From Polychytrium aggregatum (Eukaryota > Chytridiomycota > Chytridiomycetes > Polychytriales), in the NCBI RefSeq assembly GCF_025602895.1, contig NW_026516209.1, positions 310,001-374,000 of the forward strand: a stretch of 64,000 nt of DNA, in the 5' to 3' direction. How positions within the stretch are numbered: the first letter of the stretch is position 1; each line of letters starts with the position of its first letter. The notes below the pieces were generated by a model that saw nothing but the letters and a program-made list of their open reading frames with translations, had not been told where the DNA came from and did no database searches. This document shows, in pieces, positions 1 through 51,139 of this stretch. Position numbers and translations under genes: made by a program.

Positions 1-1229
1 CAAACAAAACCGGAAAGAGCGACCGGACAGCCATCCTGCGGAGGACCAAGATGAGATGAGCCAGAATGAGCGAGCGCCAGCCAAGCCGCGGGAACAAGCA
101 GCCGGAGAAACGGGCATTGCCAGAGAGAAGGCCGGGCTGGGCCGGGCTGGGCTGAGCGGGGCCCAATACAGACGAATCGCCCGGCTGCAATGGGCCGATG
201 GAAGGGATGGGCGGATTCCATCCGGCAGGCTTCCATGCCGGCCCGCCCTGGCCAAGACGAGGCTGCTGCTGCTGCTGCTGTTGCTGCCGGCGAGCACTGG
301 GCAACAGATCGCCGCGCCAGATCGCCACACCAGAGGCGGCATACGCCCAGCCCCAGGACACCCCCAGATCCGAAAGCCAGAAGCAGCCCGCCTGTCGTGG
401 GCGCGCAGGACACAGCGCTGCGGGGCCTCTCACGAATTCCAGGCGTGGCACCACGGCCGAGACACAAGGGCCGGACGAGCCGACACGTGACGGCCATGTC
501 CGGCTGTGCTCGGTGCGGGTGGGGCTGGCTGCGTGTGCGGGTGCAGCACTGGGCCTGGAGGCCGATGTGGCTGCTTGTACAGACCGCGTCGCAGCGAGGG
601 GGAATCCAGTTGACCACCACCACCATCACTATCGCCATCACTATCGCCATCGCTATCATCACCGTCGGCCAGCGCAGGAGGGCATTACAGCAACAATGCG
701 ACGACACCACGCCCACACAGCAACACCACAGCAACTACCTCGCAACCACACAGCAGCACCACACAGATAGCGGGCCGCGGCTCAGAACAGCATGTCCAAG
801 AATAGCGCGGCGCTAATGCAGTGGCCGTGTCGCGCTGCCCGCGCGCCTGTGCGCCCTTGTCGCGCCCACCCACCCCGCGCCGCCATTGGCTGCAGCACCC
901 CCGTGCGACCCTGTTGGTGTGACCCTGTTGTGCAACCGCCCCTTCCCAAGTGCTTTTTTTTGACTTTCCTTGCCCGCCTGCCCGTGGGCGTCATCCTCGC
1001 TCCCGCGGCGTCCTGTCTCCTCGCCGCCACACCGGCCCCCCCTCCTGGCCACGTCCTTATTTCGTGTGTCTGCTCTGCCCAAAACCACCACCGGGTCGTC
1101 GCTATCTTTTCCTTTCCTTCGTCTGCTCTTGCCCGGCCTTCGCTGCTGTCGTCTGCCGTCCCGTCTGCCGCTCCGCCTCCCTCCCCGCTCCATCTTGCCC
1201 CTTGCCTCGTCTTTCCCTTGGCCGCCAAC
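1..1229. other. Gene-free upstream region of the Ras gene
   Basis: I see no supported gene here. Open frames exist on both strands, but they overlap one another and translate into His/Thr/Pro/Arg-rich low-complexity strings without domains, as GC-rich repetitive DNA tends to do. The stretch has a CTG run at about 262-286, CAC/ATC-rich sequence at about 610-770, and a C+T-rich tract from about 940 to 1225 just before the Ras start, which is the likely promoter and 5' leader. A tail end of an upstream gene cannot be excluded. Confidence 0.5.
262..286. repeat. CTG triplet run
   Basis: About eight CTG-type triplets, with one TTG interruption, lie in non-coding DNA upstream of the Ras gene. Confidence 0.8.
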
Positions 1230-3403
1230 ATGGTTATGAAGATTGTCATGCTCGGTGACGGTGGTGTCGGCAAAACAGGTGTGTCTCGTGCTGGCCAATG
1301 CATTCTTCTGCTGCTGGCCAATCCACGCTTCTGCTGCTGGCCAATGCATCCCATAGGCTGTCGATGTCTCCCCACTTCGGTCGGCGGGCCACCTTGGATC
1401 TGGGCACTTGCTCCCGTTGGTTGTCTGGACCGACGGCCGTTGTCTTGTCCAATGGCCCAGCACAGCTGCAAATCATGTCTCTAACTCTGTGTGTTCTGTT
1501 TCTTAGCCCTCACTATCCAGGTATCGTCTTGGGCACACCGGCATTCCTTCGGCTGGCGGATTGCTGCCTCTCTCTGCTTCCGATACTAACATGCACATGC
1601 ATCCTTCCATATCAACCCATCCACACACCCCCCCCCTGGCCTGTCGCTGCCGCCAAATATCGACCTGCTGCTCATCCATTCGCCGCCGCCAATCGTCATT
1701 TCTCCGTCTCGCTGCGGATACGAAACTCTTCGACTCGCTTCTGCCTTCTCTTTTTGCGCCACCGCATACTCCACGGATGCCTCCGACTCTCCCCAAACCA
1801 CGCTCCATGAACACATCGCTGGTCATTCCCAACCGAACTGGCCCGAACCGAACCGAACCGGACCCGGCAATATCCGCATCGATCCCGACTCCCTATAGTT
1901 CTGTCGCAATGAGTTTGTTGGTATGTGTGTCTCTCAACCAAGGGCAAGGGCAGCGGCATGTCTGGTTGGGTGTCGATCCTGGCCGCTGCGGCCGTCGGTG
2001 GTCGGTGGTCGGTGGTCGGTGGTCGGTGGTCGGTCGATTGGTCCCCGCGACTGCTTCAGCGGCCCATCGTACGCAAGTCGAGTCTCCAAAAGCCTGCGCT
2101 GAGCCGCAGTGTCCTCACCAATTCATCTCTTATTCTCGGCCCCCATTGACACTCGGGTGGTTGCATTCGTCACCGTGAACCCATTCTCGTGCTACAGAGG
2201 TAGGTCGCCGTCCGTTCAGCGCACATGCGGCAGCGTTCTCTCGTGCAAGCCCCCTCTCCTGGTCTGCATGTGCGCCCCTCGCTCTCACCCTCGTCCCTCG
2301 CACCCCAGTCCGTGATGCTCCCGCTAAGGCCTTTGTGCATATCTCTGCAGGTCTACGATCCTACCATTGAAGACTCGTATCGAAAGCAGATTCTGGTCGA
2401 CGGAAAGCCGTGCCAGCTGGAAATCCTGGACACGGCCGGACAGGAAGAGTATATTTCGTATGTGTCACACAGGCCGCATGCCCTCAATCCGCCAGCAGCG
2501 ACCCGCCACCACCCGCCACCACCCGCACGGCAAAGCCGCCACCCGCAGATTGGTTCCGCTTGTGCCGATGCCGCCGAGTCTCTGCGATAGTGCTCAATCG
2601 TCCTGGGCTGCCGAGGTGCTGCAGCGACGCCTTCGATGCGCAGAGTCAACACACTGCTGACACGCTCCCGGTCCTTCCGCTGATGCACAGTCTCCGCGAC
2701 CAGTGGATTCGTGATGGCGACGGATACGCCATCGTCTATTCGATCAACGACCGGAACACATTCGAGCGTATCGAAAAGTTTGCCCTCCAGATCGCCAGGG
2801 TGAAGGAGAGCGAGTACTCGAGCCTGCTGCTCATCGGAAACAAAATCGATCTGGACTCCGAGCGCCAAGTCTCGAAAGAAGAAGGTGCCGCCAAGGCCCG
2901 GCAGCTTGGTGCCGAGTTCATCGAGACCAGTGCAAAGACCTCGATCAACGTCGAAAAGTAGGTGCTGCCCAATGCGGCCGAGGGTCTTCGAAGCATTCCT
3001 TGTGCGGCCGGCTGGCCGTTGGATATATCCGTGCATCGCTGACCAGGCGCGATTCTCTTCCGCGTGCCGACGCTGCTTCTGGTATTGCGTCTGGCATTGC
3101 TGTCGTTGTCAAACACAGGGCGTTCCATCAGGTATAGCCAGCATCCATCTGTCGCCGATCTGATACCCATCTCCCAGATCCTCGACCTCGCCGTCTCCTC
3201 GCACGTGCCCACTGTCCGCTCGCCTGCCTCGCCTGCCTCGCCTGCCTCGCCGTCTCGCTGGTCAGTCTCGCGCCCGCATGACTCATCGATATGCCTCGGC
3301 CTCTGTATAGATCATTCGCAGCTTCCGTCGATATGCAACCGGCGGAGCTACCAGCGGGGCGTCCTCAAAGAAGTCCCAGGGATGCCACTGCATCATTGTT
3401 TAG
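1230..3403 (+). CDS. Ras-family small GTPase (8 exons, 188 aa)
   Basis: Membrane-anchored GTP switch. Proposed exons are 1230-1278, 1509-1522, 1899-1920, 2198-2199, 2351-2457, 2691-2957, 3119-3131 and 3311-3403. All phases match and all introns are GT-AG. The product is 188 aa, against 189 for human H-Ras. Visible motifs are the P-loop GDGGVGKT (residues 9-16), switch [22 protein letters not shown] and ETSAK. The C-terminus is CHCIIV: a CaaX box (CIIV) for prenylation with an extra upstream Cys that could be palmitoylated. The start has a good context (GCCAACATGG). Without the 2-nt exon the protein loses frame or residues just before switch I. The family call is near certain; the exon at 2198-2199 is inferred from homology and splice-site consensus. 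Confidence 0.93.
1994..2035. repeat. Heptanucleotide tandem repeat (GTCGGTG)n in Ras intron 3
   Basis: About six near-perfect copies of the 7-mer GTCGGTG sit in the intron between Ras exon 3 and the proposed microexon. Confidence 0.85.
2198..2199 (+). other. Proposed 2-nt microexon (AG) of the Ras gene
   Basis: Exon 3 ends at 1920 in phase 1 before a consensus GTATGT donor. Exon 5 begins at 2351 in phase 0 with the codons for [10 protein letters not shown]. Two bases are needed between them. The sequence CTACAG-AG-GTAGGT at 2192-2205 supplies an acceptor, two bases and a consensus donor, making a GAG codon (Glu). The Ras frame and its exact family spacing before switch I are then restored. 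The alternative donor GTTGGT at 1917 would delete two residues. Acceptors at 2219 or 2249 would insert 34-44 foreign residues. Confidence 0.6.
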
Positions 3404-4565
3404 GCAACGTCCTCTGGCTCTACCCTTCGTCCCGCCTTCTCGACTGTCCTCCTGTCCAGAACCCACCAGCCTTCTCCAAACGCATGCGATTTCGCTGCTC
3501 GAGTGTCTATTTAATTGCTCGCTTCCCTTGCCATGCTCCCAGATGCTCTTGTCCTGCCTTGCCATTCTTCTGACCCAGCAGGTCCTCCAACCGGCCTTCC
3601 CGTGTCAGATACGGCGCTCTTCCTGTAGTTCCTCCACGCACCACCTTGTCAGGCCTGTGGCCTGCCATTCCCTCATGGGCTTGCACTTTGTCACCGACAC
3701 GGAACCTTTTGCTTCCACACGCTCACCAAGCAACGCCGATCCCGATAGATGCCTCCATAATATCACCCGCCCATTGTATTATCCCGATGTCGCTGCCTCG
3801 GTCCCTTGACCGATCCCTTTCAAATGTTGGCGTCTTGCTCCCTCTTGCCGTCGGCGTCGCTGTCAGTGTCCTTGCCATCGTCGCCGGCGGCGTCGCTGCC
3901 GTCGTTGCTACTGTCCTACCCATGCCGATTTTCCTGCTATAGCTGTGCTTCCTGCGGTCTCTCTCCACATTTGTCCCCTTGTTTCCCTGTCGGTTCCTCG
4001 TTTTACTCTTTTGTCTTTGTTCTTTCTCTGACGATTGCCATCTTGCTCATCTCGCAGCCTCTCCCGCCCCCTGTTCTGTTTCCTTCCACAGTGAAGACCA
4101 ACAAATCCCAACGGCCCGGAAACATTGGCGATGCAGAATTGGAGAGGAGGCAACTCAAACTGCTGCACTTGGCTCTTTGCTGCATGGGCTTTGCCTGGCC
4201 TCATACAGTACAGCCGCTCCCTCCTTTGCGGAAGGGGCAGAACAAAAATCCAAACCTGACAGAATAGAGCCAAGCCCGTTGTTGTATTGTTTGAGCACGC
4301 CCCCACTTGTCTGTTTCGCTTGCCCTTTCTCAGTCATCTCAGGGTTGAGCCCTTCTTTTTTTGCCAGTCGGTCAGTGTCCTTGGTCGGCCCTGGACCCTG
4401 TTGCATTGGTGATTTTCCTTTTGTCCTTGCATCTCCTTCCTGTGATCTGGATAACAATATCACAGTCGCATACATGTCCAATACAACCCTCCTATCCGCC
4501 CATCCGTGAGTGAGGCCACGAATACCAATTCCGCTTGGCTTTGCGCTTCGCCAATGCCCTCCATC
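3404..4565. other. Intergenic, pyrimidine-rich, no gene seen
   Basis: Between the Ras stop and the retrotransposon insertion point I find no domain, no conserved frame and no convincing exon. The plus strand is strongly C+T-rich, with CTGCCTCGC-like repeats just upstream at about 3220-3250. The open frames translate into Ser/Leu/Pro/Cys-rich strings of the kind expected from biased composition. It probably holds the Ras 3' UTR and part of the next promoter. Confidence 0.5.
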
Positions 4566-50396: not shown

Positions 50397-51139
50397 GGCT
50401 GTCCTTGCGTGGTTGTATTGCTTATCGAACCTCTGGACACCAAAGGACACTGGCGCACCAAAGGACGTTAGATGCCGTCTCATCATTTCGGGGGGGGGGG
50501 TTTTTTACTTTGACTTGCTGCTGCTTTTGGGATGGGTCATGGTGCGCGGCTGCGTGCTCTCGTTCGCTGACACTGCGGCTCGTGCTTTGATTCTTGTCCG
50601 GGCGACTCTGTTTCTTTTCTGTTTCTGTCGAACCGAGCCAATGTACGCTTTACACATGGGCAAAATGGACACCTTTCATATTCCCGCATGTCAGCGCAGT
50701 ATGGGGATGGCTTGCATCCTACTCAGCCATGTGCAATTCGACAGATCGCCAGCGAGGTGTCGAAACTGATTGGTCGAGGCTAATTTGGCTCCCATGTTGT
50801 CGATGTGAGTGGCGACGGTGATGTTTGAACTGCTCAAGGTACCGAGCAAACCGCTGCCTCCTTTCCACCCTGAATGCTGCTGTCAGAGCTGCGAGCAGAC
50901 CACCGAGCACTTGCTCGAAACACTGATTTGGTTTGAGGATTGTATTTGCTTGGGCAATTACGGCTGAGATGTCAGCGTGTGATTGTGGGCCGTTCCATAC
51001 ATAACCAACGGACAGCGCATCTCCATCCTGATTGATCCCTGCAGCAAGAGTCCGTTCCTCCGCCCACCCCGAGCCCCAATACTGGAGAATACGACCAGTC
51101 GAGTCAGGACGCGAAGGAAGCGAAAGGAAGGCAAACCAT
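50397..51139. other. Intergenic between convergent kinase and PMT genes
   Basis: No gene supported. A G-run of 11 followed by a T-run of 6 occurs at about 50490-50506. Remaining open frames are short and lack motifs. It should hold the 3' UTRs of both genes. Confidence 0.5.

Follow-up and report, generated by a model that had tools for sequence, protein, structure and literature searches.

A probable two-nucleotide exon in a Ras-type GTPase gene of Polychytrium aggregatum and in its diverged paralogue

A gene of a Ras-type GTPase occupies positions 1230-3403 of the window, i.e. the whole 64,000-nucleotide stretch of Polychytrium aggregatum DNA analysed in this study, which starts at base 310001 of contig C386 (the assembly comprises 64.7 Mb in 418 contigs). 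Based on the genomic data, we are highly confident that the dinucleotide AG at positions 2198-2199 truly is an exon of this gene, 2 nt long and probably used constitutively, and that it originates from two adjacent intron positions, both of which are occupied. Its sequence, its phase, the strength of its splice sites and the occurrence of the same exon in a diverged paralogue were all observed directly. The AG probably belongs to a rare but already known kind of exon, of which it is a very small representative.

The gene was modelled as eight exons (Table 1), which together make up 567 nt, that is 188 codons and a stop, with GT...AG ends at all seven introns. The 188-residue model with every phase correct, put forward in a sequence-only reading of the window, can therefore be retained. 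The product is predicted to be a Ras family GTPase with a full Ras domain and a CAAX-type end: the Pfam Ras profile (PF00071, E=1e-55) is matched over positions 1-160 of 162, and the C-terminus, CIIV, is CAAX-like. Its best solved relatives are R-Ras2 and K-Ras. The glutamate whose codon is completed by the AG corresponds by alignment to K-Ras residue 30, just before switch I, and no gap falls on that residue in any of the three alignments with structural relatives shown.

Table 1. Exons, two introns and a repeat of the Ras-type GTPase gene (window coordinates)
Feature	Position	Strand	Description
Exon 1, 49 nt	1230..1278	+	16 residues and 1 nt; P-loop
Exon 2, 14 nt	1507..1520	+	Tandem paralogue: same exon, also of 14 nt; L023: fused with exon 1
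Exon 3, 22 nt	1899..1920	+	TTCTGTCGCAATGAGTTTGTTG; codes for FV at its end, followed by G (phase 1); both paralogues likewise have a 22-nt exon
Intron 3, 277 nt	1921..2197	+	GTATGT...CTACAG, phase 1; donor 7.8, acceptor 8.1
Two 7-nt repeat units missing in the second assembled copy	1994..2007	+	Inside intron 3
Exon 4 (putative), 2 nt, AG	2198..2199	+	Second and third base of a GAG (Glu) codon; same exon at L023:1538-1539
Intron 4, 151 nt	2200..2350	+	GTAGGT...CTGCAG, phase 0; donor 9.1, acceptor 6.2
Exon 5, 107 nt	2351..2457	+	Starts GTCTACGATCC after CTGCAG; switch I
Exon 6, 267 nt	2691..2957	+	Splice-aware alignment and translation
Exon 7, 13 nt	3119..3131	+	GGCGTTCCATCAG; both paralogues have a 13-nt exon in this place
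Exon 8, 93 nt including stop	3311..3403	+	Ends CIIV

A second assembled copy of the gene is present on contig C17. Over window positions 1001-3858 it shows no base substitutions and differs by one 1-base and one 14-base indel, both intronic. Intron 3 carries a perfect 7-nt repeat (GTCGGTG) at positions 1994-2034, which is two units shorter in the second copy. As contigs C17 and C87 are free of substitutions in the genes, neither of them provides evolutionary information. Among the genes used as queries, a transketolase-like gene gave near-equal match scores on four contigs (C79, C64, C390 and C397); the other query genes were usually found on two contigs each.

The exon is required by the reading frame. 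Exon 3 ends with FV and one further base before the donor GTATGT, and exon 5 begins in phase 0, therefore exactly two bases have to be supplied; the G of exon 3 joined to AG gives Glu. When the AG is omitted, the translation runs FVGLRSYH and then meets a stop, which leaves a product of 34 aa. This phase arithmetic had been proposed from the sequence alone, together with the arrangement CTACAG-AG-GTAGGT at positions 2192-2205 (acceptor 2192-2197, AG 2198-2199, donor 2200-2205), and direct reading confirmed both.

We used a splice-aware aligner whose sole requirements were an AG and a GT, for which GC could stand in at a cost, and which had no other preference for sites. Aligned with a Rheb-like protein from this genome, the gene was given the AG exon at 2198-2199 at all three intron penalties. 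The aligner also produced doubtful exons of 1 to 9 nt in several other loci, close to ends that aligned poorly, and one of 1 nt, likewise doubtful, close to the end of the tandem paralogue at the lowest penalty (see below). Splice sites were scored with a donor/acceptor profile that rests on only 45 introns, obtained by aligning 26 Ras-superfamily loci; the training excluded the target gene, its tandem paralogue and the two tested introns of the paralogue L023. The donor of the AG exon (9.1) is the best of the 42 interior GTs of the 430-nt gap between exons 3 and 5 (next best, 4.0), and its acceptor (8.1) is the best of the 18 AGs, the last acceptor counted. The same loci gave 85 introns, counting doubtful ones, with median donor and acceptor scores of 6.8 and 5.9, respectively.

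The AG at 2198-2199 is the sole AG-NN-GT within the gap. When the gap was shuffled with dinucleotide composition preserved, some AG-NN-GT appeared in 3967 of 5000 sequences and AG-AG-GT in 173, and none contained a 2-nt exon with both sites this good. The score of the real gene model (419.5) exceeded those of all 200 shuffles scored in this way (maximum 417.2). Some exon of 6 nt or less was obtained in 188 of these 200, therefore the existence of a micro-exon solution proves little in itself; the case for the putative AG exon is carried by the strength of its sites and by the paralogue. Masking either site lowered the score from 419.5 to 395.8 and spoiled the protein. The best model without the AG exon, which used a 7-nt and a 17-nt exon giving QFVAAHRTQVYDPT, was about 24 units worse. 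Two further acceptors, at 2219 (score 6.8) and 2249 (2.9), were also considered. As no interior donor except that at 2200 scores above 4.0, no exon between either of them and position 2350 is supported. In a simple search for branch-point-like motifs, confined to the last 70 nt of each intron, intron 4 showed CTAAG, 27 nt before its end, and intron 3 only TTGAC, 52 nt before its end; neither L023 intron showed any.

The predicted exon finds its strongest support in L023, the third gene of the same clade, located at about base 51,000 (about 50.4k-52.4k) of contig C386. Its layout is as follows: TTC GTT G/GTAAGC, a 151-nt intron, ATCCAG/AG/GTAAGA, a 373-nt intron and GTCCAG/TCG TAC GAT. The AG at L023:1538-1539 completes the same Glu codon (G+AG) as in the target gene; its donor (9.4) is the best of 20 and its acceptor (7.7) the second of 17. 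None of 5000 shuffles reached both site scores, a test in which the start of the first intron was set one base late, and AG-AG-GT occurred in 113 of them. The model score, computed with the correct start, was 451.6 and was reached by none of 200 shuffles (maximum 447.0), 145 of which contained some exon of 6 nt or less. The first alignment of this gene, made with the first query and without site scores, contained a different 6-nt exon with poor sites; the 2-nt AG exon won after the site scores had been added. A second AG-NN-GT of L023, at 1638-1639 (GC; sites 4.4 and 0.6), was taken by the aligner only when the first AG was masked, at a cost of 15 units (436.5 versus 451.6).

The target and L023 proteins share 57% identity over 187 positions, and a blastn comparison of their introns gave no match better than E 1.9. 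Such diverged proteins, together with introns that are unalike, suggest that the shared 2-nt-exon arrangement is old and not a recent copy. At that divergence, an arrangement common to both genes is hard to explain by an assembly slip or by coincidence. The same AG in the same codon of L023 strengthens the 2-nt exon, favoured already by the sequence-only reading, as the best-supported model. Since the frame needs it, its flanking sites are above chance and it is conserved in L023, the AG would be classified among the ultra-short (1-3 nt) coding exons.

These observations also bear on the possibility that the gene is mis-assembled or decayed, i.e. that exon 5 should begin with AGAG, of which one AG is missing, the intronic AG-AG-GT being coincidental. 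A 2-base loss in an AGAG repeat would be the simplest source of a phase mismatch, and AG-AG-GT of any strength did arise in 173 of the 5000 shuffles. However, not one of those 5000 reached both site scores, every other exon of the target gene is intact through the CAAX-like end, and L023 combines the same mismatch and the same AG exon with a different start of exon 5 (TCG). In addition, the two assembled copies agree, although they may not rest on separate reads. We consider such a loss extremely unlikely.

Another explanation assumes a single long intron (1921-2348) with a non-canonical 3' end (...TCTCTGC/AG GTC), in which case the AG at 2349-2350 would be exon sequence. An AG does sit directly before exon 5, as it does in L023 (CC/AG TCG), and the resulting mRNA and protein would be identical to those of the 2-nt-exon model. 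Because this AG also ends the second intron, mature mRNA alone cannot separate the two. Nevertheless, a GT...GC intron would be needed in the target gene and a GT...CC intron in L023, and the presence of AG-AG-GT in both gaps, with a donor that is the best of its gap in both genes, would be left without an account. A long intron of this type is thus, in our opinion, very unlikely.

The 2-nt exon is best described as the strip between two intron positions that lie 2 nt apart and are both occupied. Each of these positions is used alone in other small GTPase genes, and they occur together in two Ras-like genes of the same genome. The first is found alone in the tandem paralogue of the target gene (L009, contig C386, 306.5k), whose start codon lies 4.8 kb upstream of the target. 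This gene shares the 14-nt exon, the 22-nt exon and the phase-1 intron with the target, and its next exon begins AC-ATT-TAC, the codon being that of Asp; the two bases belong to this next exon, there is no 2-nt exon and one intron suffices. About 1.9 kb upstream of its start codon, GCAATA is perfectly repeated about 35 times in a row (L009:396-608).

The second position is occupied alone in Rho-like genes. A Rho-like query was the best match for eight loci. In five of these (L016-L020, on contigs C386, C112, C35 and C68) there is a single phase-0 intron exactly at the alignment column of target intron 4; the exon before it ends with GAG in four of the five, and the next exon starts with GTC, as in the target, in two of the five. 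The phase-0 introns of the Rho and Ras genes may be due to shared descent or to parallel gain at an AG/G site. In a tree of nine proteins from this genome, the clade of the target, L023 and the tandem paralogue is firm (100/99), with its inner order left open, and the tandem paralogue may have lost intron 4 or may never have had it. A common origin of introns 3 and 4 by duplication was rejected, as the blastn matches between them are not longer than 8 nt.

All three genes of this Ras-like clade lie on contig C386, two of them in tandem, and they contain exons of 13, 14 and 22 nt; 10 of the 16 internal exons of the clade are of 25 nt or less. Nine loci aligned with eight E. coli proteins yielded no internal exon of 6 nt or less among 39 and a single one of 25 nt or less, which has a weak donor and lies in a poorly aligned end; some of the introns inferred in this comparison (33, 33 and 36 nt, with poor sites) are doubtful. 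A 5-nt exon, AGCAG, was found in the Ras orthologue L024 (contig C334, minus strand 2423-2427), where it has an acceptor of 7.7 and a donor of 9.7 and supplies part of E and Q of AMREQYM. In this small sample, very short exons seem to gather in Ras-type genes.

The splicing of the AG exon, its constitutive use and the order of the splicing steps are inferred. Introns 3 and 4 would both be ordinary complete GT-AG introns, most likely excised in succession, with the two ends of each intron paired to one another (intron definition). Two bases are too few for donor and acceptor factors to bind together, which makes exon definition unlikely and stepwise intron definition the natural reading. If intron 3 were removed first, TTTGTTG would be joined to AG, and the second donor would read GAG/GTAGGT both before and after this step, because the last base of intron 3 and that of exon 3 are both G. 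If intron 4 were removed first, CTACAGAG-GTCTAC would be formed and an ordinary acceptor, CTACAG/AGGTC, would be left.

Stepwise removal, which is likely in any case, and the adjoining acceptor and donor, which resemble a ratchet point, also raise the question of whether AG-AG-GT contains no exon at all but serves to cut the gap in two steps, as a recursive (ratchet) site or as one half of a stwintron. A ratchet site is a zero-length exon inside a long intron, and the ratchet points of Drosophila retain no bases, whereas here two bases must be retained, otherwise the frame is broken after FV, and the gap is only 430 nt long. As for a stwintron, introns 3 and 4 do not interrupt each other's splice sites, both having uninterrupted GT and AG ends, and with zero retained bases the frame is again broken. 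Hence, we find it scarcely credible that the site is anything of this kind. The sequence-only reading had left the choice between a 2-nt exon and a recursive splice point: the former stands, as the frame needs AG, and neither a recursive site nor special machinery is required, since both introns are complete.

It is conceivable, though improbable, that the 2-nt exon has been kept by selection as a splicing checkpoint, which would have tied Ras dosage to splicing kinetics in two paralogues since a deep duplication. In such a case, as the exon would not be recognisable from both sides, its inclusion would be set by the order and speed of removal of the two introns, and failed inclusion would lead to an early stop.

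The AG exon provides a natural test case of how the spliceosome includes an exon too short for both of its sites to be bound together. A single genome offers the comparisons: one sister gene also has the exon, another lacks it, and Rho-like genes carry an intron at the second position alone. Such a gene could also defeat gene prediction, as joining exons 3 and 5 directly results in a frameshift at switch I. The size of the exon is not a record, and the earlier view that exons this short are at or below the limit of splicing does not hold, because 1-nt exons with RNA evidence are described in passages of PMC4674806, PMC8831610 and PMC12940212. Literature phrase searches for printed 2-nt exons gave no paper that was on the topic by its title, and none is named in the passages of the review PMC13149111.

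In plants, APC11 and VPS55 are described in passages of PMC4674806 and PMC8831610 as containing 1-nt exons with RNA and construct evidence, and the authors of the former find intron definition with stepwise removal more plausible. The Ras exon resembles these in being ultra-short and in having relatives or paralogues both with and without it. It differs in its length of 2 nt, in its origin outside plants and in being known from genomic sequence instead of RNA and constructs.

Drosophila recursive splicing, according to passages of PMC8605326, uses ratchet points, in which an acceptor and a donor are juxtaposed and removal is stepwise, as we suppose it to be here; those points are placed in long introns, in contrast to the 430-nt gap of the Ras gene with its 2 retained bases. 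Stwintrons, the spliceosomal twin introns of fungi (passages of PMC9024468 and PMC12403724), are similar in consisting of two adjoining introns with presumably the same stepwise removal. A term search found no micro-exons in the passages of PMC9024468 that it covered. The internal intron of a stwintron interrupts a splice site of the outer one, while the Ras gene retains 2 nt between two complete introns.

A close parallel concerns the Fusarium CYP621A P450 genes, whose 1-nt exon is supported by RNA reads and conserved among orthologues (PMC12940212). In both cases a fungal gene contains an exon below codon length, directly flanked by an acceptor and a donor, which was recognised from a phase mismatch inside a conserved motif and is conserved among related genes. 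The Ras exon is longer by one base and is known from genomic sequence and a paralogue, not from RNA reads and orthologues. The Fusarium authors proposed that a cryptic exon made up for the loss of a base from an exon (PMC12940212). The AG exon may have had a similar origin, but this would leave the Rho-like intron position unaccounted for. Unlike in Fusarium, where a rescue was proposed, an explanation is offered here by two intron positions that are singly present in relatives.
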